NCBI RefSeq assembly: GCF_037969765.1 | Contig: NZ_CP150207.1 | Span: forward strand, 1,970,001 to 2,034,000 | Direction: 5' to 3' | Source: Paenibacillus sp. FSL W8-0186 | GTDB taxonomy: Bacteria; Bacillota; Bacilli; Paenibacillales; Paenibacillaceae | DNA length: 64,000 nucleotides | Part shown: positions 14,496 to 28,395 of the stretch, one piece after another | Position numbering within the stretch: position 1 is the first letter of the stretch | Layout of the letters: every line of letters starts with the position of its first letter | Position numbers and translations under genes: made by a program | Notes under the pieces: model-generated | Told to the model about the DNA's origin: nothing | The model's input: only the letters and a program-made list of their open reading frames with translations | Databases searched by the model: none

Positions 14496-14654
14496 TTATT
14501 CCACTCCTCTCATTTTTGAAAAACAAGGTATGTACATTATGAAGATAAAACAGAATACAATTAATCCCACAAAGAGCATATATTCCTATGAATATGTAAT
14601 TATTTTTCTTTTATGGTAGATCGTTAGGTTATGAAACTTTGGGAGGAGGATGAA

Positions 14655-14762
14655 ATGGGACAGAGGAAGAGGGATTACTTCAGGCATGAGCAGAAGGTCA
14701 TGTTTAAAATTATTTTTTTATCGGAATATGTCGAAAGGAGTAAACTGAAAAAAAGAGCTTGA
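14655..14762 (+). CDS. Possible small basic protein (35 aa)
   Basis: ATG at 14655 is preceded by GGGAGGAGG at the right distance, and the frame gives MGQRKRDYFRHEQKVMF... ending KLKKRA. The product is strongly basic with no recognisable domain. Its stop overlaps the -35 element of the tRNA promoter. Only the quality of the ribosome site supports it; the rest of 14496-14802 shows no other gene. Confidence 0.4.
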   Translation: MGQRKRDYFRHEQKVMFKIIFLSEYVERSKLKKRA

Positions 14763-14787
14763 CTTCTAACTAGCAATTTCATATAAT
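14759..14787 (+). promoter_or_regulatory. Sigma-A promoter of the tRNA-Ala gene
   Basis: TTGACT (14759-14764), a 17-bp spacer and TATAAT (14782-14787) lie 15 bases before the tRNA. This is a near-consensus housekeeping promoter. Confidence 0.9.
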
Positions 14788-14802
14788 GAAATAGTCGTTT
14801 GC

Positions 14803-14875
14803 GGGGTCTTAGCTCAGCTGGGAGAGCGCTTCGCTGGCAGCGAAGAGGTCAGGGGTTCGATCCCCCTAGACTCCA
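14803..14875 (+). tRNA. tRNA-Ala (anticodon GGC)
   Basis: The 73 bases fold as a full cloverleaf: acceptor GGGGTCT/AGACTCC, D arm GCTC...GAGC, anticodon arm CTTCG-CTGGCAG-CGAAG with anticodon GGC, and T arm AGGGG-TTCGATC-CCCCT, discriminator A. The third acceptor pair is G3:U70, the identity element of tRNA-Ala. CCA is not encoded. A strong promoter precedes it and a terminator follows. Confidence 0.97.
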
Positions 14876-14885
14876 TACGAAGAAG

Positions 14886-14917
14886 AAGGTTAGCCATATT
14901 GGCTAGCCTTTTTTTTG
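14886..14917 (+). terminator. Terminator of tRNA-Ala
   Basis: AAGGTTAGCC / GGCTAGCCTT stem with an ATATT loop and a T-run. Close copies of this hairpin occur at 26936, 29260 and 34995. Confidence 0.92.
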
Positions 14918-15116
14918 TTTGTATGGAGTTCGGTTGGGCCGAACCCTGGGATTCAGACCGCGTGCTGGGAGTGGATGTTGCTCCGAATGAAAACTCCGAA
15001 CGGACGAGCACGGCGTCGGAATCTACCGCTAAAAGTCATCGTTGGGTTAACTTCGTCAGTATATGACCAAGATTCGAAGATCCCATGATGGATCAGCGTA
15101 TCAAAAACCTCCACCG

Positions 15117-15298
15117 TAACGGAACAGAGCGACCTTATCTCTATGAACAAGAGCCAAATTGCAAAGTAACGGAACTCAGCGCCACTATTTGAGCAATTTG
15201 AGGTGAGAAACAAGCAGTTTGCATTAATAACGCAATTGAGTTCCGTTAGAATTTATTCTCGGCCATTTTGGTCCACATAACGCTTTCTAGTTCCGTTA
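15117..15298. repeat. 182-bp four-repeat element, locus 1
   Basis: Four 25-bp units lie at 15117-15141 and 15167-15191 (plus orientation) and 15224-15248 and 15274-15298 (inverted). All begin TAACGGAAC; the most conserved also carry CTCA and end CG(T/C)TATT or CTATTTG. Unit starts are 50 bp apart on each side, and the inner pair spans 82 bp, so unit 1 can pair with unit 4 and unit 2 with unit 3. The same geometry recurs exactly at 27082-27263. The last two units lie within or across the 3' end of the gene 15253-15972. Confidence 0.85.
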
Positions 15299-15972
15299 GA
15301 CTCATCCAAGTTCCGCAAACTCTCGCCAACATTCAACTGATATGTCCGATATCTTATATTTCCGCCTACAACTACTAAATGATTGGCATCTACCAGACTA
15401 CGTAATACACTTCGAGCGTATCGATCTGTAACTCGAAGATGTGCAGCAAGTTCATTCGGCGTAAAAGGCTTGAGTAGTCTGCGTGCATATCGAACCGCTT
15501 CTGCTTCCATCCAATTCAATCGGGCATCCACCTCGAACGACAGAAATTTTCCCATGAACGATAAGATCAGCTGCTTGCAAAATTCCGGTTCTTCACGAAT
15601 CGACAAGTACGCAATCGGCAAAAAGATCCAATCATCGAGAGACAATAAACTTTGTCTGCGGCACAGATCCTTAAACCTGCGTGTGTCCAAATCTCGGGCA
15701 TGCGACCGGTAATCATGAATTTCAATATCTCCCTTCATATTTCCCGGTAAAAAAGCCAAGTCGAGATACCTGTACCCGTTATTAAAATCACGGACCTCCC
15801 ATTCGGGATATAAATAATCGAAGTTACCGACGACTGGATACCAGATGGAACGTAACATTTCCACCGTCCCGTGGCTCAACCCTTTTTGCAACAATTCGCT
15901 TCTTCGATGATTCTTTTCCTGCTCGATTTGCTTGTGCATCCACGACTCATATTTATTCTTAAATATGTACAA
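15253..15972 (-). CDS. Nuclease-like (PD-(D/E)XK-type) protein with C-terminal winged helix, paralog 1
   Basis: The 239-residue product is about 65% identical by eye to the product of 27381-28037. A central region reads PEWE (E57), YLDLAF (D71), then IEIHDYRSHARD (E84), matching the E...D...E-x-K layout of Vsr/DUF559-like nucleases but with His86 in place of Lys. Residues about 158-212 resemble a winged helix (LLKPFTPNELAAHLRVTDRYARSVL). The last 25 residues are absent from paralog 2 and are encoded by the repeat element. The start is a TTG three bases past AAGGAGG. A leader terminator precedes it. DNA binding or cleavage is inferred. Confidence 0.75.
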   Translation of the reverse strand: MYIFKNKYESWMHKQIEQEKNHRRSELLQKGLSHGTVEMLRSIWYPVVGNFDYLYPEWEVRDFNNGYRYLDLAFLPGNMKGDIEIHDYRSHARDLDTRRFKDLCRRQSLLSLDDWIFLPIAYLSIREEPEFCKQLILSFMGKFLSFEVDARLNWMEAEAVRYARRLLKPFTPNELAAHLRVTDRYARSVLRSLVDANHLVVVGGNIRYRTYQLNVGESLRNLDESNGTRKRYVDQNGRE

Positions 15973-15987
15973 TCCCCTCCTTGTAAC

Positions 15988-16034
15988 CTAAAAAATGAAA
16001 AAGCCGCTTCGATACATCTAAGTATCAAAGCGGC
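15988..16034 (-). terminator. Leader terminator/attenuator upstream of paralog 1
   Basis: On the minus strand GCCGCTTTGATAC pairs with GTATCGAAGCGGC (one mismatch), followed by TTTTTCATTTTTT. The T-run ends only a few bases before the ribosome site of the gene. No minus-strand gene lies upstream that it could terminate, so it is a 5'-leader hairpin. Paralog 2 has a counterpart starting with the same CCGCTTTGAT. Confidence 0.7.
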
Positions 16035-16058
16035 AAGTGCTTCATGTCCGTTGGTTCG

Positions 16059-16088
16059 AGTATAGCATTGAAGTATCTTCTATTTCAA
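16059..16088 (-). promoter_or_regulatory. Promoter of nuclease-like paralog 1
   Basis: On the minus strand TTGAAA (plus 16083-16088), an 18-bp spacer and TATACT (plus 16059-16064) lie about 25 bases upstream of the leader hairpin. Confidence 0.6.
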
Positions 16089-16202
16089 GGTGAATGGAAT
16101 AAGGCGTTACGTCTAGGCAAGAACCCAGACAAGTGCATCCACATATATTGATCATCAAATAATAAATAACAGGAAGATATAACTTTAAGGATGAGGTGTA
16201 CT

Positions 16203-16976
16203 ATGCCCTATACAGATAATTACGAGAGAGATGTTTACGGGATCCTTGCCTTTTGGTTGCGCAATGATTATGACCATGGCCGATTTTTGGATCGTGAAAT
16301 TAGTCATTATGAATTAGAATTGGCCCGCGCAAACCAGCATATGATTCAGCGCTTAGGGGAAGTTTGGAAGAAAGCCGAATCAAAAAATGCCGAAATCGGC
16401 AGTTTATTGCATGAGGCACAGCATGTTACCCACGAATTTCATAGTTTATTAACTCACACAATGGATCGGTCTTTGAATTGTAGTGTAATCATTTCAACTC
16501 CGGTATCTTTGCTTGATCATATGGTGCGCGAGGCGGAGGAGTCGCAAAGAGTATTTCAATTAATCGAGAGCGGCGCCCAATTATCACCCGCTGACGCAAC
16601 CATTCATGAAAATGTCTTTTGGTTGAGGCAAATGGCGGATCATCTTGGCTATATACGACATTATTTAGATATATCTAATTACGACCTGAATTTTAAAGTG
16701 ACGAATATGATGCAAAAATTTGAACGATTACTGATGCAAGCAACTGCTCATCAAACCATGTTTCGCCGCCCTCGCCATGAAAATTCACCCATATTAAATG
16801 CCTTCAACCAAACCATCATTAAAGAAGCTAAGGAACTAGAAGCATTTAAATTGGAATTGGATGCTTTAATTAAAGAATGTGCGGCTGCGACGACTTCCCC
16901 GCCCGACTTGTTGGAACATATCGCTAGGGAAGCGCATCACCTATGGAGAAACTTAGAAGACGGTATTGTGCGTTAA
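16203..16976 (+). CDS. DUF2935 family protein (ferritin-like helical bundle)
   Basis: The 257-residue product contains two similar alpha-helical halves with His/Glu pairs such as FLDREISHYE and FWLRQMADHLGYIRHYLD. This is typical of DUF2935, a Bacillales family whose known structures are metal-binding four-helix bundles. The cellular role is unknown. The ATG at 16203 has GAGGTG at about five bases; an ATG four codons upstream has its AAGG too close. Confidence 0.85.
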   Translation: MPYTDNYERDVYGILAFWLRNDYDHGRFLDREISHYELELARANQHMIQRLGEVWKKAESKNAEIGSLLHEAQHVTHEFHSLLTHTMDRSLNCSVIISTPVSLLDHMVREAEESQRVFQLIESGAQLSPADATIHENVFWLRQMADHLGYIRHYLDISNYDLNFKVTNMMQKFERLLMQATAHQTMFRRPRHENSPILNAFNQTIIKEAKELEAFKLELDALIKECAAATTSPPDLLEHIAREAHHLWRNLEDGIVR

Positions 16977-17168
16977 GTGCTTATCTACATAAATAATATG
17001 TTTCGCAATGAAGTTCACGATCTCGTCGTGGACTTTTATTTCTGGTTCAATATAAATGGACGATTGACTGAACTTGGGCTCTTGGAGCAGTGAAACTATC
17101 CATCTTGGGAGGGTGCAACAATCGTCCCACGTTGGGGGACATGGATTGAGAAAAAAGTCAAAAGCGAC

Positions 17169-17199
17169 TTGAGATTGGAGTCAACTCCAATGTTATTCT
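17169..17199 (+). promoter_or_regulatory. MerR-type operator-promoter
   Basis: TTGAGA (17169-17174) and TATTCT (17194-17199) are separated by exactly 19 bp, the unusual spacing of MerR-activated promoters. The spacer holds a perfect ATTGGAGT-CA-ACTCCAAT dyad. It stands in front of a truncated MerR-like start. The rest of 16977-17382 shows no intact gene. Confidence 0.7.
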
Positions 17200-17205
17200 G
17201 AATTT

Positions 17206-17262
17206 ATGGAAAAACTTTATTCTATACAAGAGGTTTCACAGATGCTTCGATTGCGATCGTAA
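17206..17262 (+). pseudogene. Truncated MerR-family regulator (N-terminal remnant)
   Basis: ATG at 17206 encodes MEKLYSIQEVSQMLRLRS and then a stop. The first 15 residues match the start of the MerR DNA-binding helix-turn-helix (YSIQEVS..LGLS). Everything after the first helices is gone. An overlapping frame just downstream ends in a hydrophobic stretch (IVIYVALIILGGFI), which may be the tail of a lost membrane protein. The match to a MerR operator immediately upstream supports the assignment. Confidence 0.5.
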
Positions 17263-17382
17263 TCTATGTCGCCCTGATCATACTGGGCGGTTTCATCTAA
17301 CTTTGTAGACTTGCTCAAAGCAAGTAAGTATAATTTCCGACTATTCTTGATCAAGCATAAAAATCAAACATAGGAGAATATC

Positions 17383-17952
17383 ATGTCCTGGAGCAAATTA
17401 AAGCAGCAATTAGAGAGTTTTCTCAGTCCTTCGTTACAGGGGAAAGTGGAATACCGTGCAACTGGTTATCGTTATTTGCCCGATAAAGCAGGGATTTGTT
17501 ATATCACGGTTAATAAGAAAAATATACTGAATATGAACGATACGACTACCTTAATCAAATGGTATCAATCGGAGCAGGACATTAAAAATGATGCGAGTAT
17601 CGATATTCCGATCAGCCATGAACAAATAGAAGCTGTCAGAAATGATAGTCATGGCAAGATTCCGGAAGATCGTTTAGTCGTCATTGCGCGAGGCAGAAAA
17701 ATATCCGAATTGGCAAAAGAGCTTATGACAGCACAATCCTCACTTAGTAAGTCCAATTTTATAGCTGTAGCTAATCAATTTTTGTCCACGTCTATTGAGG
17801 AGAGCATCGAAAGCAAGGATATATTATTGAATATCTTGGCATTGGTGGACAGGCGAGTCGGGAAAAAGCGAATTTTAAACATGTCCGAAAAAATCAAGCT
17901 GAAGCATCCGGTTGTGCAATATTTTTATAAATTAAGGCTCAGTACGTTCTAA
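17383..17952 (+). CDS. Conserved hypothetical protein, SF0329-like
   Basis: The 189-residue product begins MSWSKLKQQLESFL and contains YRYLPDKAGICYITVNKKNILNM. I associate this pattern with the SF0329 family of uncharacterised bacterial proteins; this assignment is from memory. It is soluble, with no signal peptide or membrane helix and a Lys-rich C-terminus. The ATG has AGGAG upstream. It converges on the DinB gene through a short hairpin. Confidence 0.6.
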   Translation: MSWSKLKQQLESFLSPSLQGKVEYRATGYRYLPDKAGICYITVNKKNILNMNDTTTLIKWYQSEQDIKNDASIDIPISHEQIEAVRNDSHGKIPEDRLVVIARGRKISELAKELMTAQSSLSKSNFIAVANQFLSTSIEESIESKDILLNILALVDRRVGKKRILNMSEKIKLKHPVVQYFYKLRLSTF

Positions 17953-17967
17953 TGGGAAGATGAGGAA

Positions 17968-17992
17968 AACCGCCCCACAAGGGGACGGTTAG
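17968..17992. terminator. Hairpin between convergent genes
   Basis: AACCGCCCC / GGGGACGGTT stem between the 189-aa gene and the DinB gene, overlapping the DinB stop region. T-runs are short. Confidence 0.55.
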
Positions 17993-18468
17993 ATTACGGA
18001 TAGAATTTGATTCTTATGATGAATGTCATGTTCTATAAATTCGTGGATGATATAAAGCAATGAGTAGGGAGTGCCTGTATGTGGACAATTTTCTACGCCG
18101 TTTGCAGTCACATTTTTAGAGGCGACATCCGGCTCAGTTAGCATGATCTCAATCAATTGAAGACGGGTTTGCTTGAATTCGCCAAGTAACCTACTTTTGG
18201 GAATACCCGAACGGGCATATTCATAAGCTTGTTGATTGAACGAATCGAAATTTGGAAAGACCATTCCTTCGCCATTTTTAATCGCAGGGATAATCGTATT
18301 GATGAGGTAATTATCCCAATTCATAAGATGCGAAACAATTTCCGCGACTGTTGCCTTCCCTTCAGCGATTGGAGCTAACCAAATGTTATCGTCTAATTCA
18401 TGTAATGTATCCGTCCATTCTATAAAATCTTTATACCGATGAATCGTTTCTTTGCCTAAACTAATCAT
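17989..18468 (-). CDS. DinB/YfiT-like metalloprotein
   Basis: The 159-residue product fits the DinB four-helix bundle. SHLMNWDNYL and HEFIEHDIHHKNQI carry the spaced histidines that bind a divalent metal. Members include thiol-dependent transferases (bacillithiol or mycothiol) and damage-inducible proteins of unknown activity. GGAGG precedes the ATG. The hairpin at 18493-18520 separates it from the gene upstream. Confidence 0.85.
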   Translation of the reverse strand: MISLGKETIHRYKDFIEWTDTLHELDDNIWLAPIAEGKATVAEIVSHLMNWDNYLINTIIPAIKNGEGMVFPNFDSFNQQAYEYARSGIPKSRLLGEFKQTRLQLIEIMLTEPDVASKNVTANGVENCPHTGTPYSLLYIIHEFIEHDIHHKNQILSVI

Positions 18469-18492
18469 ATCGGGAACCTCCAGGTTATAAAG

Positions 18493-18520
18493 TAAAATAG
18501 GAACTTATGTTCCTATTTTA
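18493..18520 (-). terminator. Terminator of the quinone oxidoreductase gene
   Basis: A 12-bp perfect stem (TAAAATAGGAAC with GTTCCTATTTTA, four-base loop) lies 70 bases past the stop of 18591-19181 on the minus strand. Confidence 0.75.
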
Positions 18521-18590
18521 TTCCATAACATCCCAAAAAGCAACAATATTTACGATAATAGATGTTATGGGATGCTGGCCTGAGTTACCG

Positions 18591-19181
18591 TTATATCCCC
18601 GTTACCTGTGCATGATCATAAGTGAATCCGAGCTCATATGCTTGCATGAGCAACTGTTTGTGTACTTCCGTGTTTGTATCCAAGGTGTTGTACAAAATTT
18701 CAACCCTGCTGTTTTCAATCCCGCAGTAACCAGCTATGGCAACGTTCAATTGATGGTTCATCATTGTATCATATTGTCTCTTTGCCATGCTTTCTTTTGA
18801 ATCGGCTGCGAGACCAATCCACAATACCTGTCGATGGTGCAGCTTATTGGAGCCATACGCAAAACCATTATTCCATACCCGATCAATATACCCCTTGAGC
18901 ATAGCGGGCAAATTGTACCACCATACGGGAAAGATATAGGCAAGAGCATCATGTTTTCGCATGCGTTCCATTTCTGCCTCTACTTCAAGTGAATAGCTCT
19001 TTTGATCCGATGACCAATCAGGTTCATCTGTTTCCCACAGCACAGGATTAAATCCGCTGCGGTGCAAGTCCAGAAGCTCTGTCTGATGACCTGCATCAAT
19101 AAGGCCTTGAGTAAATCTGTCTGCAACAGCAAACGTAAGAGATTGCAGTCTGGGATGTGATACAACAGTTAAAATGTTCAC
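18591..19181 (-). CDS. NAD(P)H:quinone oxidoreductase, flavodoxin-like
   Basis: The 196-residue product begins MNILTVVSHPRLQSLTFAVADRF, the FMN/FAD phosphate-binding region of the KefF/MdaB/NQO1-like family. FPVWWYNLPAMLKGYIDRVW is the hallmark flavin-binding segment. It reduces quinones by two electrons, avoiding semiquinones. The start is GTG behind AGGAAGGTG. It is divergent from an HxlR regulator at 19333, a common regulator-target arrangement for electrophile stress. Confidence 0.92.
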   Translation of the reverse strand: MNILTVVSHPRLQSLTFAVADRFTQGLIDAGHQTELLDLHRSGFNPVLWETDEPDWSSDQKSYSLEVEAEMERMRKHDALAYIFPVWWYNLPAMLKGYIDRVWNNGFAYGSNKLHHRQVLWIGLAADSKESMAKRQYDTMMNHQLNVAIAGYCGIENSRVEILYNTLDTNTEVHKQLLMQAYELGFTYDHAQVTGI

Positions 19182-19332
19182 ATTTTGTCACCTTCCTTTT
19201 TCGATATGTTCCAATTGCATTATGTATGATATTGTTAAATTTAGGAATAACGCACTTTTTTGTTCTTATGGAACCGAAAAGTGCTATAGATACGGAAAAG
19301 TAACTAAAACACGATGTAGAGGGTGGATATCT

Positions 19333-19704
19333 ATGGGAAATCATTCGATTCAGTTCTATAATATCTCTGCAGAAGCGACTTTGGATGTAATAGGGGGAAA
19401 ATGGAAGCTATTGATCCTGTGCTATCTAAATTGCGGGCCTATGAGATCGAGCCAGTTCAGAAAAGTGATTCCTAATCTATCCCAAAAAATGCTGACGCAG
19501 CAGCTTCGGGAATTGGAGGAAGCCGGAATCATTAACCGAACAATTTATAATGAGGTGCCGCCGAAAGTTGTTTACGAAATCAGTGAATTAGGGAAGTCGC
19601 TGAAGCCGATATTAGACCAATTGGGCAAATGGGGAGAGCAATATATTAACGTTAGTAAAAGCAACAATCCGCACGCTAAAATTCAGTTGGGGGAGTGTAA
19701 CTGA
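19333..19704 (+). CDS. HxlR-family transcriptional regulator
   Basis: The 123-residue winged-helix protein has the family signatures ATLDVIGGKWKLLILCYL, LSQKMLTQQLRELEEAGIINR and VVYEISELGKSLKPIL. HxlR-type proteins such as YodB and CatR sense diamide or quinones through an N-terminal Cys; here the only early Cys is in LCYLNCG. The ATG at 19333 follows GGGTGG. It probably controls the divergent quinone oxidoreductase; the 150-bp gap holds several AT-rich dyads. Confidence 0.9.
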   Translation: MGNHSIQFYNISAEATLDVIGGKWKLLILCYLNCGPMRSSQFRKVIPNLSQKMLTQQLRELEEAGIINRTIYNEVPPKVVYEISELGKSLKPILDQLGKWGEQYINVSKSNNPHAKIQLGECN

Positions 19705-19787
19705 CAACGGTCATTCAGATTCTTCTATTATGATATAATCGCCTCAGACGTTGAAGTATTCTAGTTATCTCCCAGGAATAGGTGAGC

Positions 19788-22169
19788 ATGATGGTACCAC
19801 CCCTAATTACAACGAAGCTCTATATCCCGAAACCTCGACCTGGCGCAGTAGTACGTCAGCGGTTGAAGGAGCGGCTCGACCAAGGTATGCATCGGAAGTT
19901 ATCTTTGATCTTAGGTTCTGCCGGTTATGGGAAAACTACACTAGTAAGTGAATGGCTCTCCAGTAGTGATCGTCCTGTGGCATGGCTGTCGCTGGATGAA
20001 GGGGATAATGACATAAGTCGCTTCCTAGCTTATTTTATCGCAGCATTGCGAACAATTGCAGCGCATCAGGAATTGAATGTTTCTGACCTGCTCCAATCTC
20101 CACAGTCACCTTCAATCTCTTCTATAATATCTGTTCTGATCAATGATCTTACGAGGCTAGCTGAACCCATTATATTTGTACTCGACGATTATCATGTGAT
20201 CCACTCCAAGTCTGTGCATGACGCAGTTTCCATGCTGCTCGAGCATATGCCCCCGAATTTACATATGGTTATTCTGGCGCGCGAAGAGCCGGAATTGTAT
20301 TTGACTGAATTACGGGTAAGGGATGAAATCACCGAAGTGGGCGTCAAGGACTTGCGATTCAGTGATGAGGAGTCGGCATTATTTTTGAACCAAACGATGA
20401 ATTTAGGGCTGTCACTGGAAGCAGCATTCATGCTTGCAGAACGTACAGAAGGATGGATTGCCGGTCTTCAGATAGCTGCCTTATCCATGCAAGGACAACA
20501 AGCAGCTGAACTTTTCCCCTCACTTTTCTCAATCAATCAACGCGTATTGTTTGATTATCTAGTTCATGAAGTTTTACTTAAACTTCCAGATTCTGTACAG
20601 AAATTCTTATGCTATACTTCGATCCTTGATCGGCTATGCGGCTCACTTTGCAATGCCGTGCTGCTTGACGATCCCTCCATTCCTGGAGATCAAGTTCTTC
20701 AAACTCTCGAGCGCGCCAATCTATTTATCGTCTCCTTGGACCATGAACAACGCTGGTATCGCTATCACCATCTATTTGCAGAATTTCTGCGACATCAATT
20801 ACAGCAACGGATCATCCATATTGGCGAGATAGAGGACATGACTGTATTACATCATCGTGCAAGCGTGTGGTATGAGAAACAAGGCTTAAGTTTAGAGGCT
20901 TTTCGTCATGCCGTTGCTGCTAATGATATTGAGATCGCCTCCCGGCAGGTCGAAGGCAACGACATCCCTCTGCATCTTCAAGGCGAAGTTGCTCCTGTGT
21001 TGAACTGGTTGGAGTCCCTGCCGAGATCCGAATTGGATGAACGACCCTCGTTATGGGTGATGTATGCTTCGGCATTGTTGATGTCTGGCAGACCAACGGA
21101 TGTTGAATCCAAGCTGCTGGCTGCAGAGGCTGCTCTACCGGAGACCGCATGGGAAGCCACACCGAATAACCTGCTCGGTATGATCGCCACTACACGTGCC
21201 GCAGTAGCTGCATTTACAGTTTCTGGTCCATCAGAATCCGCTGAATTGAGGCTGCAAGCCATAGAAGACGCACTGCAAACGACGAATACAATGGATAAAA
21301 CGAATGAACTAGTTGGCCAGATTGCTCCAGCGCATGCGCGGAGTGAACTGGACTCACATCAAGCAGACATCGTGATTGCGCAGTGCAGCCTTGCACTTAA
21401 GTATCTTGATCCTGAGCTTCTCCCTGTACGCATTACTGCTCTATGGATGCTGGGGGTGGCGTATCAGCTCCGCGACAATCGTTCAAAGGCACACAAGGCT
21501 TACATCGAGGTTTTGACGCTTAGTCGGAAGATGGGCGCGAATATCATTGAAGTCATGGCGAATGTTGGGCTAGGCAGTCTTAAGGAAAAAGAAAATCGGT
21601 TATACGAAGCAGAGGAGTTTTATCGGAGAGCGGTGTTGTCAAACGGTGATTTACCTTTGCCTGCTATATGTGAAGCGTATTTGGGCTTGGCTCGTATATG
21701 CTATATGTGGAATGATCTTGAGAATTCAATGCAGCATGTGCAGAAGAGTGTACAATTAGCGAAGCTAGTTGATAGCAAAGATACCATTTTGTCATGTAAT
21801 ATCATGATTGCCCGCATTAAGCTATCTCAGCATCATTGGAAAGAGGCGTCTGCAATGCTTGCTGATGCAAAGAAGTATGCTCGTGACCTTCGACTCTTGA
21901 ATCGATTGCCTGAAATTGAAGAAGTGCAAGCGATGGGGAAGCAGTTTCAGGTAGTATCAACTGCGCATGTAGAGCCTCTGACACAGCGTGAGTTGGAGGT
22001 TTTACAATTAATCGCTCATGGGTACTCGAATCAAGAGATTGGGAAAAAGCTTTTTCTAGCTGTGGATACAGTGAAAGGGCATAACCGACGTATATTTGCT
22101 AAGCTTCAGGTAGGAAGACGTACAGAGGCGGTTGCTATCGCACGCAAGCTGGGCTGGATTGAATCATGA
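19788..22169 (+). CDS. MalT-like LuxR-family ATP-dependent regulator
   Basis: The product of about 793 residues begins PPLITTKLYIPKPRPGAVVRQRL, then Walker A GSAGYGKTTL and Walker B IIFVLDDYH of a STAND ATPase. A TPR-like middle (about 400-700) follows, then a C-terminal GerE/LuxR helix-turn-helix (LTQRELEVLQLIAHGYSNQEIGKKL is split over about 728-752). Members activate transcription when a ligand and ATP bind. A GTG at 19782 and ATGs at 19788 and 19791 are possible starts; AGGA fits 19788. The DUF4386 gene next to it is a likely target. Confidence 0.9.
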   Translation: MMVPPLITTKLYIPKPRPGAVVRQRLKERLDQGMHRKLSLILGSAGYGKTTLVSEWLSSSDRPVAWLSLDEGDNDISRFLAYFIAALRTIAAHQELNVSDLLQSPQSPSISSIISVLINDLTRLAEPIIFVLDDYHVIHSKSVHDAVSMLLEHMPPNLHMVILAREEPELYLTELRVRDEITEVGVKDLRFSDEESALFLNQTMNLGLSLEAAFMLAERTEGWIAGLQIAALSMQGQQAAELFPSLFSINQRVLFDYLVHEVLLKLPDSVQKFLCYTSILDRLCGSLCNAVLLDDPSIPGDQVLQTLERANLFIVSLDHEQRWYRYHHLFAEFLRHQLQQRIIHIGEIEDMTVLHHRASVWYEKQGLSLEAFRHAVAANDIEIASRQVEGNDIPLHLQGEVAPVLNWLESLPRSELDERPSLWVMYASALLMSGRPTDVESKLLAAEAALPETAWEATPNNLLGMIATTRAAVAAFTVSGPSESAELRLQAIEDALQTTNTMDKTNELVGQIAPAHARSELDSHQADIVIAQCSLALKYLDPELLPVRITALWMLGVAYQLRDNRSKAHKAYIEVLTLSRKMGANIIEVMANVGLGSLKEKENRLYEAEEFYRRAVLSNGDLPLPAICEAYLGLARICYMWNDLENSMQHVQKSVQLAKLVDSKDTILSCNIMIARIKLSQHHWKEASAMLADAKKYARDLRLLNRLPEIEEVQAMGKQFQVVSTAHVEPLTQRELEVLQLIAHGYSNQEIGKKLFLAVDTVKGHNRRIFAKLQVGRRTEAVAIARKLGWIES

Positions 22170-22266
22170 TCAACTCATGATCAACTCAACACTTAAGTGT
22201 CTATTCATCCATCTCCACTCCGGATATGCTTAGAGCAAATCCATAGTAGAGAAGGAGATTAGCATC

Positions 22267-22923
22267 ATGATAACTAGAACTAATGAAAAAATAATCGGTA
22301 CATTATTTCTGCTGGCAACAGCAGTCTTCATGATCGGCAGTGCGCTTATCGAATCTAATCTAGCTCAAACGGATTATCTTGCGCATATTTTTCCGAATCG
22401 CATGCAAGTAGTAACTGGCCTATTTCTAGAGCTCGTCAATTCTGCTGCAGTAGTAGGTATTTCCGTGCTGTTATTCCCGCTCTTGAAGCATCACAGTGAA
22501 TTTACCGCTCTTGGATACTTCAGCTCGAGGATCATCGAATCCGTACTGCTCGTCTTGGGCACGATTAGCCCGCTTGTTCTAATCACACTAAGCGAAGCCT
22601 ATATCGCCGGAGGCGGCATTAGCCATGCCTCTCACACCGAGTTAGGAAATCTGATCATTAAAGGACAAGAGATGACCTTTGAACTGGCGATGCTCATGCT
22701 CGGTATTGGCAGTGTGATGTTCTGCTGCTTGTTGTATCGCAAGAAGCTGATTCCAAAATCGCTTTCCTTGCTGGGGATTGCCGGTTATATTGCGCTCATG
22801 GCGAGCAGTTGCTTAACGATAATAGGATTCGAGCCGGGGTTCGTTCTGTTTATTCCTGGGGGGATATTTGAAATTATTTTTCCTGTATGGCTGATCATTA
22901 AAGGGTTTTATAGAACGGAGTGA
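22267..22923 (+). CDS. DUF4386 family membrane protein
   Basis: The 218-residue product has about six membrane helices and begins RTNEKIIGTLFLLATAVFMIG, as in DUF4386. No function is established for the family. GAAGGAG precedes the ATG. It follows the MalT-like regulator by 97 bases, and the two may form a regulator-target pair. Confidence 0.85.
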   Translation: MITRTNEKIIGTLFLLATAVFMIGSALIESNLAQTDYLAHIFPNRMQVVTGLFLELVNSAAVVGISVLLFPLLKHHSEFTALGYFSSRIIESVLLVLGTISPLVLITLSEAYIAGGGISHASHTELGNLIIKGQEMTFELAMLMLGIGSVMFCCLLYRKKLIPKSLSLLGIAGYIALMASSCLTIIGFEPGFVLFIPGGIFEIIFPVWLIIKGFYRTE

Positions 22924-22975
22924 TGGTAGTGATATCTCATCATGTCCTCGTCCGAATGGCCATCGTGAACTTGAT

Positions 22976-23455
22976 TCATCTAGGCAAATGAACATCAAAT
23001 TCTGCCCCTCCATGCATATGGTTCCGTACCTCAATCCTTCCGCCGTGCGCGACAACGATTTGCCGTGCGATCGCCAGCCCAAGACCTGATCCTCCGCTGC
23101 GCTCTGACTTATCGACCTTGTAAAAGCGATCGAACAAATACGGCATCGTGTCTGCCGGAATCCCCCGTCCCGTATCCTGCACGGTCACGACAACAAATGC
23201 CGGATCTTCCGCTAGAGAAACACGAATCGAAATATCACCTCCCGAAGGAGTATGCCGCAGCGCGTTGGCCAACAGGTTCAGGATCACTTGTTTGACCCGC
23301 TTAGCGTCGATATCCGCTTCGATGGGGACGGGGCGGTTTGGATTGATTAACCGAATGCCTCGAGCTTCGGCTTCAGGACGGACAAGTTCCGCCAAGTCAG
23401 CCAGCAGTCCAGACAGATCGGTCACTTTCCGCTGTAAATGCAGCTCGCCAGCCCC
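22976..23455 (-). pseudogene. Sensor histidine kinase, C-terminal HATPase part (severed)
   Basis: The minus-strand frame reads AGELHLQRKVTDLSGLLADL and then a complete HATPase with N box NLLANALRH, G1 DTGRGIP, F box FDRFYK and G2 GGSGLGLAIA, ending EFDVHLPR. No dimerisation/His domain precedes it in this frame. The missing N-terminal half is at 23705-24302 on the opposite strand. This is the distal piece of a kinase gene cut by an inversion. Confidence 0.88.
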
Positions 23456-23460
23456 CCGTG

Positions 23461-23708
23461 ACGGGGAATCCGTCACACTTACACCAACGGAATTTCAACT
23501 TCTACTGACGTTAGCAACCCGGCCAGGCGTTGTCTACAGCAGATTGCAACTGATGAGAGCAGCGATGGGTGAAGAGCTGATGAACTACGAAAGGACGCTG
23601 GATTCGCACATCAGCAAGCTTAGAAAGAAACTGGAACCGGACTCGAGCAATCCAAGATACATCCAGACCGTCTACGGGTTCGGCTATCGGTTTGGTGATC
23701 CGTCATGA
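23461..23708 (+). pseudogene. Response regulator, DNA-binding half (in inverted segment)
   Basis: The plus-strand frame from DGESVTLTPTEFQLLL to GYRFGDPS is a complete OmpR/PhoB winged helix without a receiver domain. It ends in an ATGA overlap with the kinase fragment, as in an intact operon. Its receiver domain is at 24303-24632 on the minus strand. No start codon with a ribosome site is in front. Confidence 0.88.
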
Positions 23709-24302
23709 CGCTTCGTTCCAAAATATTCGACGGGATGGCCTTGTTGGTGTTGCTGGTAGGCGCCGCTTACGTCGGGACGACGCAAGGATATCTGGGCAGT
23801 CTGCTCGCACAATACTTTACAGAAAATGTGCCGAGTGATATTGAACCGGATCAATTAGAGGGAATTCGGGACTATATCATGAGTCGAATGGGAATGAAAG
23901 CAGTCACAGTCACCTTGTTCACAGCCGGAATTGCGCTGCTGATTGGCTATTGGTTGTCGGGCATAATGACCCGCCCTTTGAGAAGATTGATTACCGAAAT
24001 GGATAAAGTAGCCGATCGGCAACTGGATACGGCAATCCCCGTTCAAGGGCCGGATGAATACGGACAGGTAAGCAGGGCTTTTAACAAAATGACACATCAG
24101 CTGCGCGACTCTGAAAACAGGCGTAAACGATTGGTTGAGGATGTAGCGCATGAGCTTCGGACTCCGCTATCGATCGTACTGACCAAATTGGAGTTGGTGC
24201 AGCAATCTGCCGTGGATGTTAAACCAGAGACACTGCTTCCGCTTCACGATGAGGTGCTTCGTGTCATTCACTTGGTGGATGAGCTGCAATTTTTAACTTC
24301 GG
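23705..24302 (+). pseudogene. Sensor histidine kinase, N-terminal half (in inverted segment)
   Basis: About 200 residues include membrane helix 1 (about 8-28), membrane helix 2 (about 62-82), a HAMP domain and the phospho-acceptor region VEDVAHELRTPLS. The frame continues to DELQFLTSA and then leaves kinase sequence after 24302. The matching ATPase half is on the opposite strand at 22976-23455. As it stands it cannot bind ATP. Confidence 0.88.
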
Positions 24303-24632
24303 CAACAGCTCGCGTAAGCTGAACGGTTTCGTGATATAATCGTCGGCTCCGAGCTCCAGTCCGATGATTTTATCGGTTTCTTCCGTTTTGGCTGTAACCA
24401 TGATGATCCCGCAGGAGGAGTTCTGTCTCAATTCACGGCATACGTCGATACCGCTTTTGCCTGGCAGCATCCAGTCGAGCAAGACAATGGCCGGTTTCGC
24501 CGTCTGAGCGAGGCGAATTGCTTCAAGTCCGTCCATTGCGGTAAGGACATGATAGCCTTCCTGTTCCAAATACTGCGTCATTGATGCCAGCAATTGATGT
24601 TCGTCTTCCACGATCAGCAATGTGGTTTCCAT
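24303..24632 (-). pseudogene. Response regulator, receiver half (severed)
   Basis: The minus-strand frame begins METTLLIVEDEHQLL and holds a good receiver domain with phospho-acceptor Asp in LLDWMLPGKSG and the conserved Lys in YITKPFSLREL. It ends there; the following residues come from antisense kinase sequence. Roughly 30 residues of receiver end and linker appear lost relative to the DNA-binding part at 23461. The original operon therefore ran on the minus strand from here toward 22976. Confidence 0.88.
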
Positions 24633-24788
24633 ACAATGTGTCCTTTCGTATGTTTATTGGCTTCATTATACCATCCTGATTTGCGTATCGGACAAATCCA
24701 CAGCATATACGGAAGTCCTCCACAAGTTCTACACATTGTTTCTATACAATGATGAAGAACAAAAAATGTATGACGGAGGTCAGACAAT

Positions 24789-25422
24789 ATGAGAAAAACA
24801 CATTTGCTCGGCTATGCAGGTTTTTCGGGTATCTTCATTTTTGCGATTTCCATTTTACTGCTGCACGGATGGCAACCAGAAATTTCAATTCGTTATGATG
24901 CCATGAGTTATTATGTATACGGACAACTGGGGTGGCTGCTCTGGGCGGGTCTTCTCGGTCTTGGACTCGGATCGTTGGCGCTTGCTGCGGGTTTTTGGCG
25001 TATACAGCAAGGAGCATATGCGAGAGTTGGCATACTATGTGCGGGTATATGGGGCACGGGTTTATTGATTGCGGCTATTTTTCCGACGGATCCCAAAGGA
25101 AGCTGGAATCAGCCACCATCGACGAGTGGTATGATCCATTTTGCAGCAGCCATCCTTGCTTTTATCGGCTATCACGTTGGCCGCCCTGTTTATTGCCCAT
25201 GCCTTCATAAAAGACGGGCGCTGGAAGCCGGTTCAAAAATGGATTGTCCCGGTTACGGCCCTGACGGCTATTTCCTTTATCCTAATCATTATCTCCATTG
25301 TGTCCATTTTTGTCTCCCACGGGTCGCCGCTCTATTTTGGACTGACGGAAAGATTGTTTTTCTTCATGAGCCTCTGCTGGATCGGCATCGCTTCAGTCGG
25401 GCTGTTGCGCTCGGAACGATGA
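24789..25422 (+). pseudogene. DUF998 family membrane protein with a frameshift
   Basis: The frame from ATG 24789 gives five hydrophobic segments of a DUF998-type protein up to GMIHFAAAILAF. Near 25165-25170, at a CTTTTA run, the hydrophobic pattern continues only in another frame (LSAITLAALFIAHAFIKDGRW... to ASVGLLRSER, ending 25422). The original frame degenerates into Cys/His-rich non-membrane sequence. Either a one-base mutation has broken the gene or there is a sequencing error in the T run. A CATTGT-N6-ACAATG dyad lies at 24734-24751, upstream. Confidence 0.75.
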
Positions 25423-25552
25423 AGTCCAGATTGACAAAATGATTGGCGTCTAGTAGTGTATCAGCAAATATGGAATTTATGCCCAACAAGTCTGGTCAGA
25501 TGAAAATGCTGATCCTGATAGCACTACCTATAGACTTCTGGAGGAGGATTCT

Positions 25553-25936
25553 ATGAATATTGTAAAAATCGAGGCGGGTGGAACAACTATCGCCGTAGTA
25601 AACGGCGTCGCGCCAGTTATCAACGATGTACAATCCGCATTGGATTTTATGGCAACCGTAAGATATGAAACGGACTGTGATCGTATTGTTATCGAAAAGT
25701 CGCTAATCAGCGAGAGTTTTTTTGACCTTAAAACGCGTCTTGCGGGCGAAATTTTGCAAAAATTCATTAATTATCAAGTGCAGATGGCGATTGTAGGAGA
25801 CTTTTCGATGTATTCGAGTCAGAGTCTGAAGGATTTTATATATGAATGCAACAATGGAAACGATATTTTCTTCGTTTCTACGGAGCAGCAAGCGATCGAA
25901 AAGCTAAGCAATATAAAACCGGGTCATTTCAGGTGA
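25553..25936 (+). CDS. DUF4180 family protein
   Basis: The 127-residue product matches DUF4180 (IAVVNGVAPVINDVQSALDFMATVRYETD; KLISESFFDLKTRLAGEILQKFINYQ). It is soluble and of unknown function. GGAGGAGG precedes the ATG. It is followed at once by the formylglycine-enzyme-like gene. Confidence 0.85.
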   Translation: MNIVKIEAGGTTIAVVNGVAPVINDVQSALDFMATVRYETDCDRIVIEKSLISESFFDLKTRLAGEILQKFINYQVQMAIVGDFSMYSSQSLKDFIYECNNGNDIFFVSTEQQAIEKLSNIKPGHFR

Positions 25937-25938
25937 AG

Positions 25939-26436
25939 ATGTCAGGCTATGGTGATATGTTTGCAGATTATCGCATGAACACTATTCCTGCGGGCGTTGT
26001 TGCTTTAAGGGATGATCGAATAAAGGAGACTTGGACGGCATCGGTAGAGTCATTTTTGCTCGCGCCCGTGCCAGTAACACAATCGCTATATGCTGCGATC
26101 ATGCAAGGAACATTGGAACCGAAGGCATTGCCTGAAATACCTAAGGTCAATGTCTCATGGTTTGATGGGATTGCCTGGTATCGTGACAATTCGGATGGAC
26201 GATTGCACGGAGTCGCACAAAAATTGCCGAACGATTGGAAACTCTATGATATGTTGGGCAATGTCTGGGAATGGTGCTGGGATCTGTATGATATCGAGGT
26301 ATACGGATCTTACCAGGTATTTCGCGGTGGCAGTTGGGCTGAAGAAGCACCGGGATGTGGAGCAACTTGCCGTCGGCGGAGTCATCCCTCTTTTCGTATC
26401 GATGATCTTGGTTTCCGTCTTGCCAAAACACTGTAA
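25939..26436 (+). CDS. SUMF1/formylglycine-generating-enzyme-like protein, internally shortened
   Basis: The 165-residue product keeps the start of the fold (AGVVALRDDRIKETWTASVESFLLAPVPVTQSLY is split here for length) and its end (LYDMLGNVWEWCWD, VFRGGSW, GFRLAKTL). VSWFDGIA runs straight into WYRDNSDGR, which in full-length relatives is separated by about 60-80 residues containing the RLPTEAEWEYA segment. The catalytic Cys pair of true FGEs is not evident. The start is ATG 25939 or GTG 25933, the latter overlapping the DUF4180 stop. It is probably non-functional or strongly altered. Confidence 0.7.
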   Translation: MSGYGDMFADYRMNTIPAGVVALRDDRIKETWTASVESFLLAPVPVTQSLYAAIMQGTLEPKALPEIPKVNVSWFDGIAWYRDNSDGRLHGVAQKLPNDWKLYDMLGNVWEWCWDLYDIEVYGSYQVFRGGSWAEEAPGCGATCRRRSHPSFRIDDLGFRLAKTL

Positions 26437-26451
26437 CTGGAGAGGTTAGAG

Positions 26452-26880
26452 ATGAAGAAAAGCGAAAACGTCAAAATAGTTGGTCAAACCGCATCTGCCG
26501 GCTTTCAAGTTGGGGTTCGGAGGACGCTGCCGATTTCACCGGAACAGTCATGGGCGTTTCTTACCTCCTCTGAAGGATTGAAGCTATGGCTTGGAACTAC
26601 TCCGACCCTTTCATTGAAAGAAGGGGAGACCTTTAAATCCGATGAGGGAATTACAGGGCAATTCAGGGTGGTTAAACCTTTGAAACAGATCCGCTTAAAG
26701 TGGGGAAAGACGGGGTGGGACAAACCATCCACACTGCAAATCCGGCTGATATCCGATAAACCAGACAGAACAACGATTAGCTTTCATCAAGAGAACTTGG
26801 ATCATGCAAATACACGCGAACAAATGAAGATTTATTGGGAAGAGGTGCTAGCCGCGATAAAGGAAAAGACAAGTCATTAA
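26452..26880 (+). CDS. SRPBCC/AHSA1-like domain protein
   Basis: The 142-residue product begins with a short lead, then VRRTLPISPEQSWAFLTSSEGLKLWLG and ends TREQMKIYWEEVLAAIKEK, the pattern of the activator-of-Hsp90-like START superfamily. These proteins bind hydrophobic ligands in a deep cavity. GGAGAGG precedes the ATG 16 bases after the previous gene, so the two may be co-transcribed. Confidence 0.85.
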   Translation: MKKSENVKIVGQTASAGFQVGVRRTLPISPEQSWAFLTSSEGLKLWLGTTPTLSLKEGETFKSDEGITGQFRVVKPLKQIRLKWGKTGWDKPSTLQIRLISDKPDRTTISFHQENLDHANTREQMKIYWEEVLAAIKEKTSH

Positions 26881-26893
26881 TCATGATAAAAGA

Positions 26894-26932
26894 GATGAGG
26901 TCAGGGGATTGATCCCTTAGGTAACATACGAA
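26894..26932 (+). pseudogene. Decayed 3' end of a second tRNA-Ala
   Basis: GAGGTCAGGGG-TTGATCCC-TAG...CATACGAA aligns with the variable arm, T arm, acceptor end and trailer of tRNA-Ala at 14846-14882, with several substitutions and indels. The 5' two-thirds of the tRNA are missing. The same terminator follows, and a further shared block (GAACCC-TGGG-TTCAGAC) is found after both (14942 and 26989 areas). Confidence 0.75.
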
Positions 26933-26935
26933 TAA

Positions 26936-26966
26936 AAGGTTAGCCCTATTGGCTAACCTTTTTTTG
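26936..26966 (+). terminator. Terminator, duplicate of the tRNA-Ala terminator
   Basis: Perfect AAGGTTAGCC / GGCTAACCTT stem with a CTATT loop and seven T residues. It may end the SRPBCC transcript. Confidence 0.88.
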
Positions 26967-27081
26967 TTCTGTTATGAAAATGGGGCCGGTCGAACCCCTG
27001 GGTTCAGACTTTGCATAGGGAACGAAGGCGGGCGAGTACACCACCCACGCCTTAGGAGACATCCGTCTGTTAGCCCGAGTC

Positions 27082-27263
27082 TAACGAATCTCATCCACGT
27101 TATTTGTACATATTAGCTATGATTTTAAATCTAACGAATCTCAGACACTCTATTTGCCGTTTATGTTCTGTCTGGAGCAGAAAAGAAGGAAATAACGTTA
27201 CCCAGCTTCGTTACATTTTGCCCGAGGTTGTTTTTGTACAAATAGCGATTGTGAGATTCGTTA
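27082..27263. repeat. 182-bp four-repeat element, locus 2
   Basis: Units of 25 bp lie at 27082-27106 and 27132-27156 (plus) and 27189-27213 and 27239-27263 (inverted). They begin TAACGAATCTCA (TAACGAAGCT in one) and end CG(T/C)TATTT or CTATTTG. Spacings of 50, 82 and 50 bp are the same as in the element at 15117-15298, although linkers are not similar. Between this element and the gene end (27264-27380) is a degenerate CTCGGTC/CTCGCTC repeat tract. Confidence 0.85.
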
Positions 27264-27380
27264 AAAAAATTTTGAAAAATTTTGATCACGTTCTCGGTCA
27301 CATTTTCGCTCCTAAGTCGTAGTCTTGGTCACGTTATCGTTCCTTCTCGCTCCAGGTCCCGTCTCGGTCAAAGCCTCGCT

Positions 27381-28037
27381 CTAAACCTCGGTCTCGGGGA
27401 GCCGGTAGGTTCGGTACCGTAGTTTGCCGCTTGCGATCAACAGCAATTGTTTGCTAGCGAGTTGACGGAGGATTTTGCGCGAATGTTGCTCCGAAAGCTG
27501 TAGATGAGCAGAAATTTCACCGGGTGTAAAAGGGCGCAGCAGTCTACGGGCAAACCGTAAGGTTTCTGCCTCCGCCCAATGGAGTCCGGAAGGTACCGAA
27601 CTTGAGAGAAACTTTCCTATAAAGGAAAGGGTAAGCTGCTTGCAGACGCCCGGATCGTCGCGGATAGATAAGTAGGCGATCGGGAGGAACAGCCAATCAT
27701 CAAGAGCCAGTAAAGACTGCTTCATGCACAAATCCTTAAATCGATTGACTTCAATGTCCCTGGCGTGGCTCCGATAATCTTGAATTTCAATACAGCCCTT
27801 GGCATTTCCCGGTAAATAAGCGAGGTCGAGATAACGATAGCCGTTATTATAGTCCCTAATCTCATATTCAGGGTATAAGTAATCAAAGTTGCCTATGGCG
27901 GGATACCAAATCCTGCGCAAAAAATCGACCGTTCCCCAGCTTAGTCCCTTTCGAAGCAGCTCTCTTCTTCGCGGACTTATCTCCTCAGCCATTTGCTGAT
28001 CCAGCCATTTCGCATAAACATCTTCAAACATGCTCAT
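27381..28037 (-). CDS. Nuclease-like (PD-(D/E)XK-type) protein with C-terminal winged helix, paralog 2
   Basis: The 218-residue product is closely similar to that of 15253-15972 over its full length. It has PEYE (E57), YLDLAY (D71) and IEIQDYRSHARD (E84), with Gln86 where active PD-(D/E)XK enzymes have Lys. A winged-helix-like C-terminus follows (LLRPFTPGEISAHLQLSEQHSRKIL). The ATG at 28037 has only a weak GGAAGTG site. The leader carries a hairpin and T-run. Context, leader and flanking repeats all match paralog 1. Confidence 0.75.
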   Translation of the reverse strand: MSMFEDVYAKWLDQQMAEEISPRRRELLRKGLSWGTVDFLRRIWYPAIGNFDYLYPEYEIRDYNNGYRYLDLAYLPGNAKGCIEIQDYRSHARDIEVNRFKDLCMKQSLLALDDWLFLPIAYLSIRDDPGVCKQLTLSFIGKFLSSSVPSGLHWAEAETLRFARRLLRPFTPGEISAHLQLSEQHSRKILRQLASKQLLLIASGKLRYRTYRLPETEV

Positions 28038-28057
28038 TTTAGTTCACTTCCATCCCC

Positions 28058-28113
28058 AATAAAACAAAAACCGCCCCAACACTCCATGTTCGAGAACATG
28101 AGCATCAAAGCGG
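28058..28113 (-). terminator. Leader terminator/attenuator upstream of paralog 2
   Basis: On the minus strand CCGCTTTGATGCT opens a hairpin with an inner CATGTTC/GAACATG stem and a closing GGCGG, followed by TTTTTGTTTTATT. It lies about 20 bases before the start codon. The opening CCGCTTTGAT and the T-run match the leader of paralog 1. No minus-strand gene lies upstream. Confidence 0.65.
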
Positions 28114-28143
28114 TATATGCTTTACACCGATTAATTAATATTT

Positions 28144-28172
28144 ACTATAACAAAATATGGTAATTTGTTCAA
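28144..28172 (-). promoter_or_regulatory. Promoter of nuclease-like paralog 2
   Basis: On the minus strand TTGAAC (plus 28167-28172), a 17-bp spacer and TATAGT (plus 28144-28149) lie about 30 bases upstream of the leader hairpin. The remaining intergenic DNA to 28395 holds no gene I can see. Confidence 0.6.
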
Positions 28173-28395
28173 GTCAGTCGCTTATGTCAAATCTATACGA
28201 AGGTGATAATGGGAAATAGCTATCTACATCATAAAGTGGATGAAGCGGACAAATAACATTCATATATTCGAATTTTTGGAAGTGTGTAGGATAAATATGG
28301 GACCCCCCATGTGGATGATTCTGGCAAACGTATACACGAGAAGCTTTTGTCTATAGAATAGAGTAGTTGATCTTAGATTAGGAGCGGATGGTATT

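Follow-up and report, generated by a model that had tools for sequence, protein, structure and literature searches.

Introduction

To our knowledge, REPIN/RAYT is the main bacterial case described so far in which dispersed repeats are associated with a single-copy nuclease gene dedicated to them. In published accounts of it, a genome carries several repeat families, each with members beside a distinct nuclease-type gene; the repeats are intergenic and occur in tandem clusters, and both co-evolution of protein with repeat and spread in trans are proposed (PMC3116915, PMC2817692). What saves this association from extinction is called an open question there (PMC3116915). Among short dispersed repeats, the bacterial miniature inverted-repeat transposable elements (MITEs) bcr1, RUP, NEMIS and ERIC are named in PMC3733652. 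Here we analyse a 64,000-nucleotide stretch of Paenibacillus sp. FSL W8-0186 (single 5.66-Mb contig NZ_CP150207.1, positions 1,970,001 to 2,034,000; hereafter the window, whose own numbering is used for its features), in which two four-unit repeat elements, element 1 (15117..15298) and element 2 (27082..27263), lie at or beyond the 3' ends of two paralogous nuclease-like genes, P0001 and P0002. We propose that such genes and elements form a dispersed-repeat system, one whose proteins probably each recognise their own repeat.

Two four-unit elements beside paralogous genes

Element 1 (unstranded, core TAACGGAACT) is built of units at 15117-15141(+), 15167-15191(+), 15224-15248(-) and 15274-15298(-), and element 2 (unstranded, core TAACGAATCT) of units at 27082-27106(+), 27132-27156(+), 27189-27213(-) and 27239-27263(-). 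As the initial annotation of this DNA had described, both therefore consist of four 25-bp units ordered direct, direct, inverted, inverted, with linkers of 25, 32 and 25 bp and a total length of 182 bp. On a geometry score over four 12-mers, with a maximum of 72, they reach 61 and 64, whereas the best scores of 178 base-shuffled loci average 39.9 and rise no higher than 48. The unit pattern, at up to 3 mismatches, has 11 matches in the window against 1.45 expected, a number reached by none of 100 shuffles, and seven of the 11 fall inside the two elements. Both elements belong to the training set of family model R1, which gives them 84.1 and 81.6 bits, and these two training members are the only places in the window that the element sequence model finds at E <=0.01. 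The linkers had been said not to match in sequence; this holds between elements 1 and 2, which belong to different families, but within a family the linkers are recognisably related. The placement at or beyond the 3' gene ends was also correct, and can be refined: unit 4 of element 1 lies inside the last codons of the open reading frame (ORF) 15253-15972, in a C-terminal tail of P0001 that its aligned paralogs do not have.

P0001 (15253..15972, minus strand) is an ORF of 239 aa with a predicted Vsr/DUF559-like PD-(D/E)XK domain and winged helix, a fold assigned through homology to the model of P0002; the two proteins are 61% identical, and the recognition helix of P0001 starts with ..TDRYAR... 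P0002 (27381..28037, minus strand; 218 aa) is of the same family, with a predicted recognition helix at 183-195 that carries Q184, H185 and K188, and with catalytic-type residues D71, E84, Q86 and H91. Its counterpart in Paenibacillus woosongensis 12CR55 is 100% identical. As modelled, the family joins a Vsr/homing-endonuclease-like PD-(D/E)XK domain to a winged helix, and D71, E84 and H91 are invariant in all 70 aligned members. PF04480 (DUF559) is matched by 14 of the 70 at E <=0.01, and the source names retrieved by the far-clade search include DUF559 and very-short-patch-repair endonuclease. P0001 and P0002 themselves match no Pfam or NCBIfam model above cut-off. A sequence search of the PDB gave a single match below E 0.001 (eS25, 3e-4), which covers the winged-helix part, and Foldseek against the PDB gave nothing at E <=0.001, its top row being an R2 retrotransposon protein. 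A defence system was considered and dropped, as PADLOC returned weak matches only (E 0.011 for P0002, 0.0047 for P0145).

Elements follow the gene family

The best tblastn query and its score decided whether a homolog was placed in the close, mid or far clade. Removal of exact gene-sequence duplicates left 163 of 178 loci, 159 of them with at least 300 bp of downstream sequence, and an element was called at a geometry score >=48, which one of the 178 shuffled loci attained. Among 111 non-redundant close homologs, 88 have such an element downstream and 21 upstream, which makes 93 with one on at least one side; it often begins within ~300 bp after the gene end. In a count that assumed no spacing, a 12-mer direct repeat at offset 50/51 occurs at 98 of 111 close-clade loci, where 20 other offset pairs average 8.7 loci, and likewise at 17 of 29 mid-clade (3.6) and 10 of 19 far-clade loci (2.3). 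These counts, made on the 163 loci, supersede an earlier all-offset scan from which seven repeated loci had been removed and other repeats between named and unnamed sets kept. The spacing is kept in the far clade, where the cores are unlike TAACGG (for example TAGCTGGATTT); by eye, TA at unit bases 0-1 and 19-20 persists in several far-clade elements.

A similar association is seen between genomes. The element model uses sequence only and was built from 75 elements, ~15 of them from the source genome. In a set of 59 genomes, elements were found in every one of the 31 that have a close homolog, defined by a best E below 1e-80 (source genome included), a presence that is partly by construction because the model was trained on most of these genomes, elements having been drawn from ~26 of the 31 either directly or via a named locus with the same gene. 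Elements also occur in six of 11 genomes with mid- or far-clade homologs only, and in three of 17 without a homolog, with no more than two matches each. The number of matches varies from one or few to at least about 45, and 27 of the 31 close-homolog genomes have at least about 45 scored matches (both strands counted). The training overlap accounts neither for these high counts nor for the near-absence of elements where the protein is lacking. No training link was seen for G010, G019, G034, G038 and G052, and all five have matches, three of them at least about 45 and G052 two only.

The four close paralogs of the source genome each stand beside a different core (GAATC, GGAAC, GGACC and GGTTG), and all four gene-side cores are also present away from genes, GGAAC in one of 17 sampled dispersed copies. 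Among the best-scoring listed copies of four genomes, a non-random sample, dispersed copies match a gene-side core of the same genome in 14 of 17 cases (G000), 19 of 20 (G005), 9 of 9 (G003) and 15 of 21 (G015); the other six in G015 carry GAC where the gene-side core has GAA. In G005, the gene with the GGAC core is broken into pieces. A distinct repeat family beside each gene, also dispersed in the genome, bears out the analogy with REP/RAYT pairs that the initial annotation had drawn. That annotation had named two observations that would count against it: homologs that generally lack such repeats, or repeats of this type found all over the genome and unconnected with the gene family. The first is contradicted by the 88 downstream elements among close homologs. 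Half of the second applies, in that the repeats are indeed dispersed through the genome, but their tie to the gene family is strong.

Within the source genome, the model gives at least 150 matches, or at least 75 places each matched on both strands, and the element family is found across Bacilli. The commonest core families of the source genome are GAATC, GGACC/GGACA and GGTTG; GGAAC is rarer. No ORF >=90 aa spans any of 22 elements checked, although an ORF of this size runs into the edge of four of them, over 9 to 111 bp. In whole genomes, matches to the unit pattern with 3 mismatches allowed are only slightly more numerous than those to its reversed control (125/125 versus 106/98 in the source genome, 108/102 versus 79/93 in G022), so the copy numbers given here rest on the four-unit model and on quartets.

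Units resemble sites in double-stranded DNA

Of 187 geometry hits, 133 passed the frame filter, and removal of duplicates left 116 elements with 464 units. The unit logo reads TAACGGA..., and TAACG...CGTTA-like ends are common to the units as a consensus. The first nine bases are mostly shared by the four units of one element and differ between families; bases 5-18 had no part in the choice of frame. The initial annotation had offered two explanations of such strict spacing, a folded RNA or DNA and a protein that binds several units. Across the 464 units, complementarity within a unit equals that of a null in which its second half comes from a different unit of that element. Over bases 9-18, mean identity is 0.57 for U1-U2 and 0.58 for U3-U4, the direct pairs, and the pairs that a nested hairpin would bring together (U1-U4, 0.48; U2-U3, 0.52) are no more alike than U1-U3 (0.51) and U2-U4 (0.52). 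In the absence of hairpin covariation, the units look like double-stranded DNA sites, and their pattern is what a protein reading double-stranded DNA would leave. A search of Rfam over window positions 14000-29000 at E <=0.1 returned only a tRNA and a sub-threshold STnc390 match, neither of which touches an element. The folded RNA or hairpin was dropped on these two grounds, and the second explanation, a protein that should bind several units, is the one supported.

The predicted recognition helix varies with the repeat core

Protein-element pairs were taken from 92 well-registered downstream elements, of which 86 belong to the close clade, 77 to proteins of at least 190 aa and 66 to a non-redundant set; four were then dropped, L040 and L073 as counterparts from a near-identical strain and L137 and L140 for broken C-termini, leaving 62 pairs, each of a protein and its nearest downstream element. 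Variable protein columns were ranked by mutual information with each core base. At core base 5, residue 184 tops all variable columns with a z of 11.9, the next column having 7.7. Gln at this residue goes with A or C in 10 of 10 cases, Arg with G in 44 of 44 and Asn with G in 4 of 5; Pro (with A), Cys (with G) and Lys (with G) occur once each. Arg with G and Gln with A are the classical pairings. At base 7, residue 185 comes second by z, and among the listed columns residue 188 scores highest after normalisation; all 17 proteins with Tyr185 have A at this base, and six further A cases lack Tyr. These residues sit at the start of the recognition helix that the model predicts at 183-195.

At the other varying bases, columns outside the helix come first or are mixed with helix columns, which shows confounding by descent. 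Because all columns share this confounding, the first rank of residue 184 at base 5 is informative. On a tree built from residues 1-150, which represent the nuclease domain alone, base 5 changes five times and residue 184 (Gln/Pro versus the rest) four times, and three of the four share a branch with a base 5 change. Comparison of the two domains by partial Mantel correlation gives r 0.29 for the winged-helix part and 0.23 for the nuclease part, both above 300 permutations. DNA binding by the winged helix is strongly supported by the helix-core covariation, and cognate recognition of each repeat by its protein seems very likely. The correlation between repeat core and recognition residues, which the initial annotation had suggested as a check, supports its idea that each protein reads its own repeat variant.

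Copies and their likely movement

Among the best-scoring listed copies of G005, unlinked ones are 85-90% alike over ~186-215 bp, in both orientations, and their alignments end within ~25 bases of the element, often within 5. One G005 pair instead shares 401 bp including flanks, and tandem arrays of elements with flanks occur. Four source-genome loci of the GAATC family were compared with G022, in which no P0002-type gene was found. At three of the four, the element is missing in G022 though the flanks are 92-98% alike. The flanks of locus 100357 meet at one base in G022, with 515 bp absent; at 966574, the left flank ends 4 bp short of the element and ~34 bp stand in place of 546; and at 1503871, G022 lacks ~408 bp, the junction showing a GGTC match. 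In G011 and G001, no element match is listed between the flanks of 100357 or 966574, where the intervals are longer and rearranged. Gain in the source lineage is therefore the simpler reading, and we regard 100357 and 966574 as two likely lineage-specific gains.

Some copies derive from a gene-side element together with its neighbour, as indicated by relics of the gene end: the dispersed GAATC elements 5020314, 69514 and 5227572 keep 34-66 bp resembling the end of the P0002 gene, and by eye a similar relic lies at 100357.

By eye, several elements are surrounded by cryptic tandem-like low-complexity DNA (for example at L012:1690-1960, in the left flank of L020 and at L004:2330-2560), and at two loci such DNA is included in what the sister genome lacks; recurrent breakage with repair may have left it there. 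Several contigs of G001 have a partial GAATC-type element no more than ~300 bp from their start, as though these elements went with a longer repeat at which the assembly broke.

Other features of the loci

Upstream of the P0001 start codon, the 5' leader (16003..16046, minus strand) carries the motif TGAAGCAC, a terminator-like hairpin and a T-run. In the leader of P0002 (28071..28127, minus strand) the terminator-like hairpin is of similar form and the motif has diverged; the strict stem test does not score this leader. Of 130 regions upstream of homologs, counted with redundant loci, 77 contain the leader motif TGAAGCACA; a strict stem with T-run is present in 37 of the 130, against seven in shuffles. 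Such a conserved leader suggests transcription attenuation of the nuclease gene. The sub-threshold match to STnc390, a Salmonella sRNA, falls at window positions 26919-26971 over a terminator-like hairpin, with 27.6 bits against a gathering score of 50, and is probably due to chance.

Seven genomes (G005, G009, G012, G019, G021, G031 and G035) have a close-clade gene with a mid-clade paralog on the other strand ~10 kb away. At 2791898-2793447 of the source genome there is a frameshifted paralog with a GGTTG core, related element sequence on both sides and similar following DNA.

Discussion

We consider it reasonably likely that these genes and repeats form a two-part dispersed-repeat system, in which a nuclease gene has its own element family and spreads it in trans. 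Sequence comparison supplies the footing for this proposal in the geometry, the gene tie, the co-occurrence in genomes, the helix-core covariation, the copies bounded near the element ends and the two likely gains. Hypothetically, each protein would bind double-stranded DNA at all four sites of its own 183-bp element. Its recognition helix would read the core at unit bases ~0-9, a second, fixed contact would be made at the TA 19-20 bases into the unit, and the protein would assemble on the element as a spaced, two-fold symmetric complex. The nuclease would then act in trans on element copies, and nicking or cutting would start a repair or copying event that places copies at new intergenic sites without target duplication. 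One or more copies would be retained beside the gene, and a change in the helix would give rise to a new core family. We infer that binding is direct, that the second contact exists, what cleavage contributes and how copies are made, and nuclease-driven spread of the elements is likely but unproven.

Several observations weigh against this reading. The TA at 19-20, seen in 99% of the 464 units, is partly built in, because the choice of frame rewarded TA and CG. The mutual information is confounded by descent, the 62 pairs having an effective number of ~28, and independent recognition switches are only a few. No element >=48 lies within 1.3 kb on either side of 18 of the 111 close homologs, and full elements at this score adjoin only seven of 29 mid-clade and 12 of 19 far-clade genes. 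Among 26 further Bacilli homologs, 17 are without an element at score >=49 (null maximum 44), and one of the nine loci that reach 49 looks like GC-rich noise; in genus g19, with a single gene copy per genome, seven of eight genes have no element at >=49. To these may be added the training overlap behind the presence of elements in 31 genomes. As regards movement, no target-site duplication was seen at 44 copies, taken from the best-scoring listed ones (mean flank repeat 0.82 versus 0.78 in the null), the element at locus 5020314, one of the four flank-tested loci, is shared with G022, and the missing segments, at 408-546 bp, are longer than the element. Finally, nuclease catalysis in the close clade is uncertain because position 86, which is Lys in 18 of 18 far-clade members, is Gln in 35 and His in 17 of the 52 close-clade members.

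This last substitution also favours the main rival explanation, in which the protein is a DNA-binding regulator or chromosome-organising factor with an inactive or secondary nuclease fold, and the elements are useful binding arrays spread by ordinary recombination and duplication. A winged helix with a specificity code would suit such a protein, as would a strict 183-bp geometry with fast-changing linkers, elements that no ORF >=90 aa spans in the 22 examined, and the many element positions that look common to sister species in unit sequence and order. What it accommodates less well are the variation in element number between genomes, from one or few to at least about 45 matches, the dispersal of copies in both orientations with ends near the element, the paralog-specific cores, the tandem arrays and the invariance of D71, E84 and H91 in 70 of 70 members; we think this explanation unlikely, yet deserving of serious weight. 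That gene and element merely hitch-hike together by descent, the repeats spreading as larger blocks that include the gene end, is favoured by the three dispersed copies with a P0002-end relic and the fourth by eye, the gene at 2792619 flanked on both sides by related element sequence, and the G005 pair that shares flanks. It is nevertheless very improbable, since the geometry is kept while core and linkers change, even between clades at ~25-30% protein identity, the helix covaries with the core, and most other G005 pairs end near the element.

Two further explanations were weighed. If the elements were MITE- or REP-like and owed their movement to a standard transposase (Y1/IS200/RAYT or DDE), with an incidental gene link, their shortness, intergenic position, dispersal and terminal inverted symmetry would follow. 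However, the source genome has its at least 75 element places and 0 Y1 transposase (Y1_Tnp) matches at E <=1e-5, in a survey of the Y1 family alone, and a RAYT or IS200 origin was dropped on this result. Y1 is present in eight of the 31 element-carrying close-homolog genomes, five of the 11 with mid or far homologs only and six of the 17 homolog-free genomes, and so does not track the elements. The target-site duplication expected of a MITE of a DDE transposon was not found at the 44 copies, and the core bases track the recognition helix of the nuclease-like protein, which together leave this explanation very improbable. We give equally little credence to a structured RNA, that is, a transcribed 3' element such as a terminator, an mRNA stabiliser or a guide RNA for the nuclease. 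The frequent position of the element shortly after the gene end would fit it, and the fold of single sequences is more stable than that of base shuffles (z -2.4 to -5.2), which is expected of any inverted repeat. Against it, within-unit covariation was not seen, U1-U4 and U2-U3 are less alike than the direct pairs, Rfam gave no match at E <=0.1 over the two window elements, and the model fits both strands alike.

Returning to the two-part dispersed-repeat system, we lean slightly towards a stronger form of it, namely that it is an undescribed class of self-spreading repeats in Bacilli, domesticated by or enslaving a homing-type nuclease that finds four spaced double-stranded sites by a switchable winged-helix code. 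If true, this code would consist of Arg or Gln at residue 184 and His, Tyr or Arg at 185, and each gene duplication could found a repeat family that is new and independent of the others. Specificities can be predicted from the helix-core covariation in a directly falsifiable way, and the 50/82/50 geometry, which stays fixed among distant homologs, offers a handle on the nucleoprotein complex. The system would also account for a large set of intergenic repeats in Paenibacillus and its relatives.

Comparison with known systems

In open PMC text searched by title and abstract start, with subscription papers and preprints outside its scope, no description of these repeats or of their pairing with the protein was found. 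No repeat family tied to such a protein was found there either, which lends novelty weak support because coverage was limited to that open text.

Among the closest known systems are, on the protein side, the catalytic domain of the Vsr-like homing endonuclease I-Bth0305I (3r3p) and NGO0050 (3hrl). DUF559 (PF04480) is likewise close through the 14 of 70 members that match it, but P0001 and P0002 are unmatched and the close clade has Q or H in place of the motif Lys. On the repeat side, the elements are like bacterial MITEs in being short, non-coding, dispersed and of inverted symmetry; they differ from these in showing no target duplication, in their four internal sites at fixed spacing and in having a dedicated cognate gene.

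The nearest likeness is to REPIN/RAYT as portrayed in its literature: a repeat family per gene, intergenic placement, tandem clusters, and a proposed co-evolution and spread in trans. The components are different. The RAYT protein is a Y1 tyrosine transposase, whereas the proteins here are predicted to be of Vsr/DUF559-type PD-(D/E)XK with a winged helix; REPs, by the same accounts, are hairpin-forming palindromes, whereas the units here are non-hairpin by covariation; and the element here comprises four sites in ~183 bp. In other words, the system works like REPIN/RAYT but is not one, because neither a Y1 transposase nor hairpin palindromes are found in it. A second system of this kind, made of a nuclease and a repeat unrelated to those of the first, would mean that this way of life has more than one origin; it would also provide an independent test bed. 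We read the genes and elements described here as a REPIN/RAYT-like way of life built from an unrelated nuclease and an unrelated repeat; if true, they are an independent counterpart of REPIN/RAYT with a recognition code readable from sequence.

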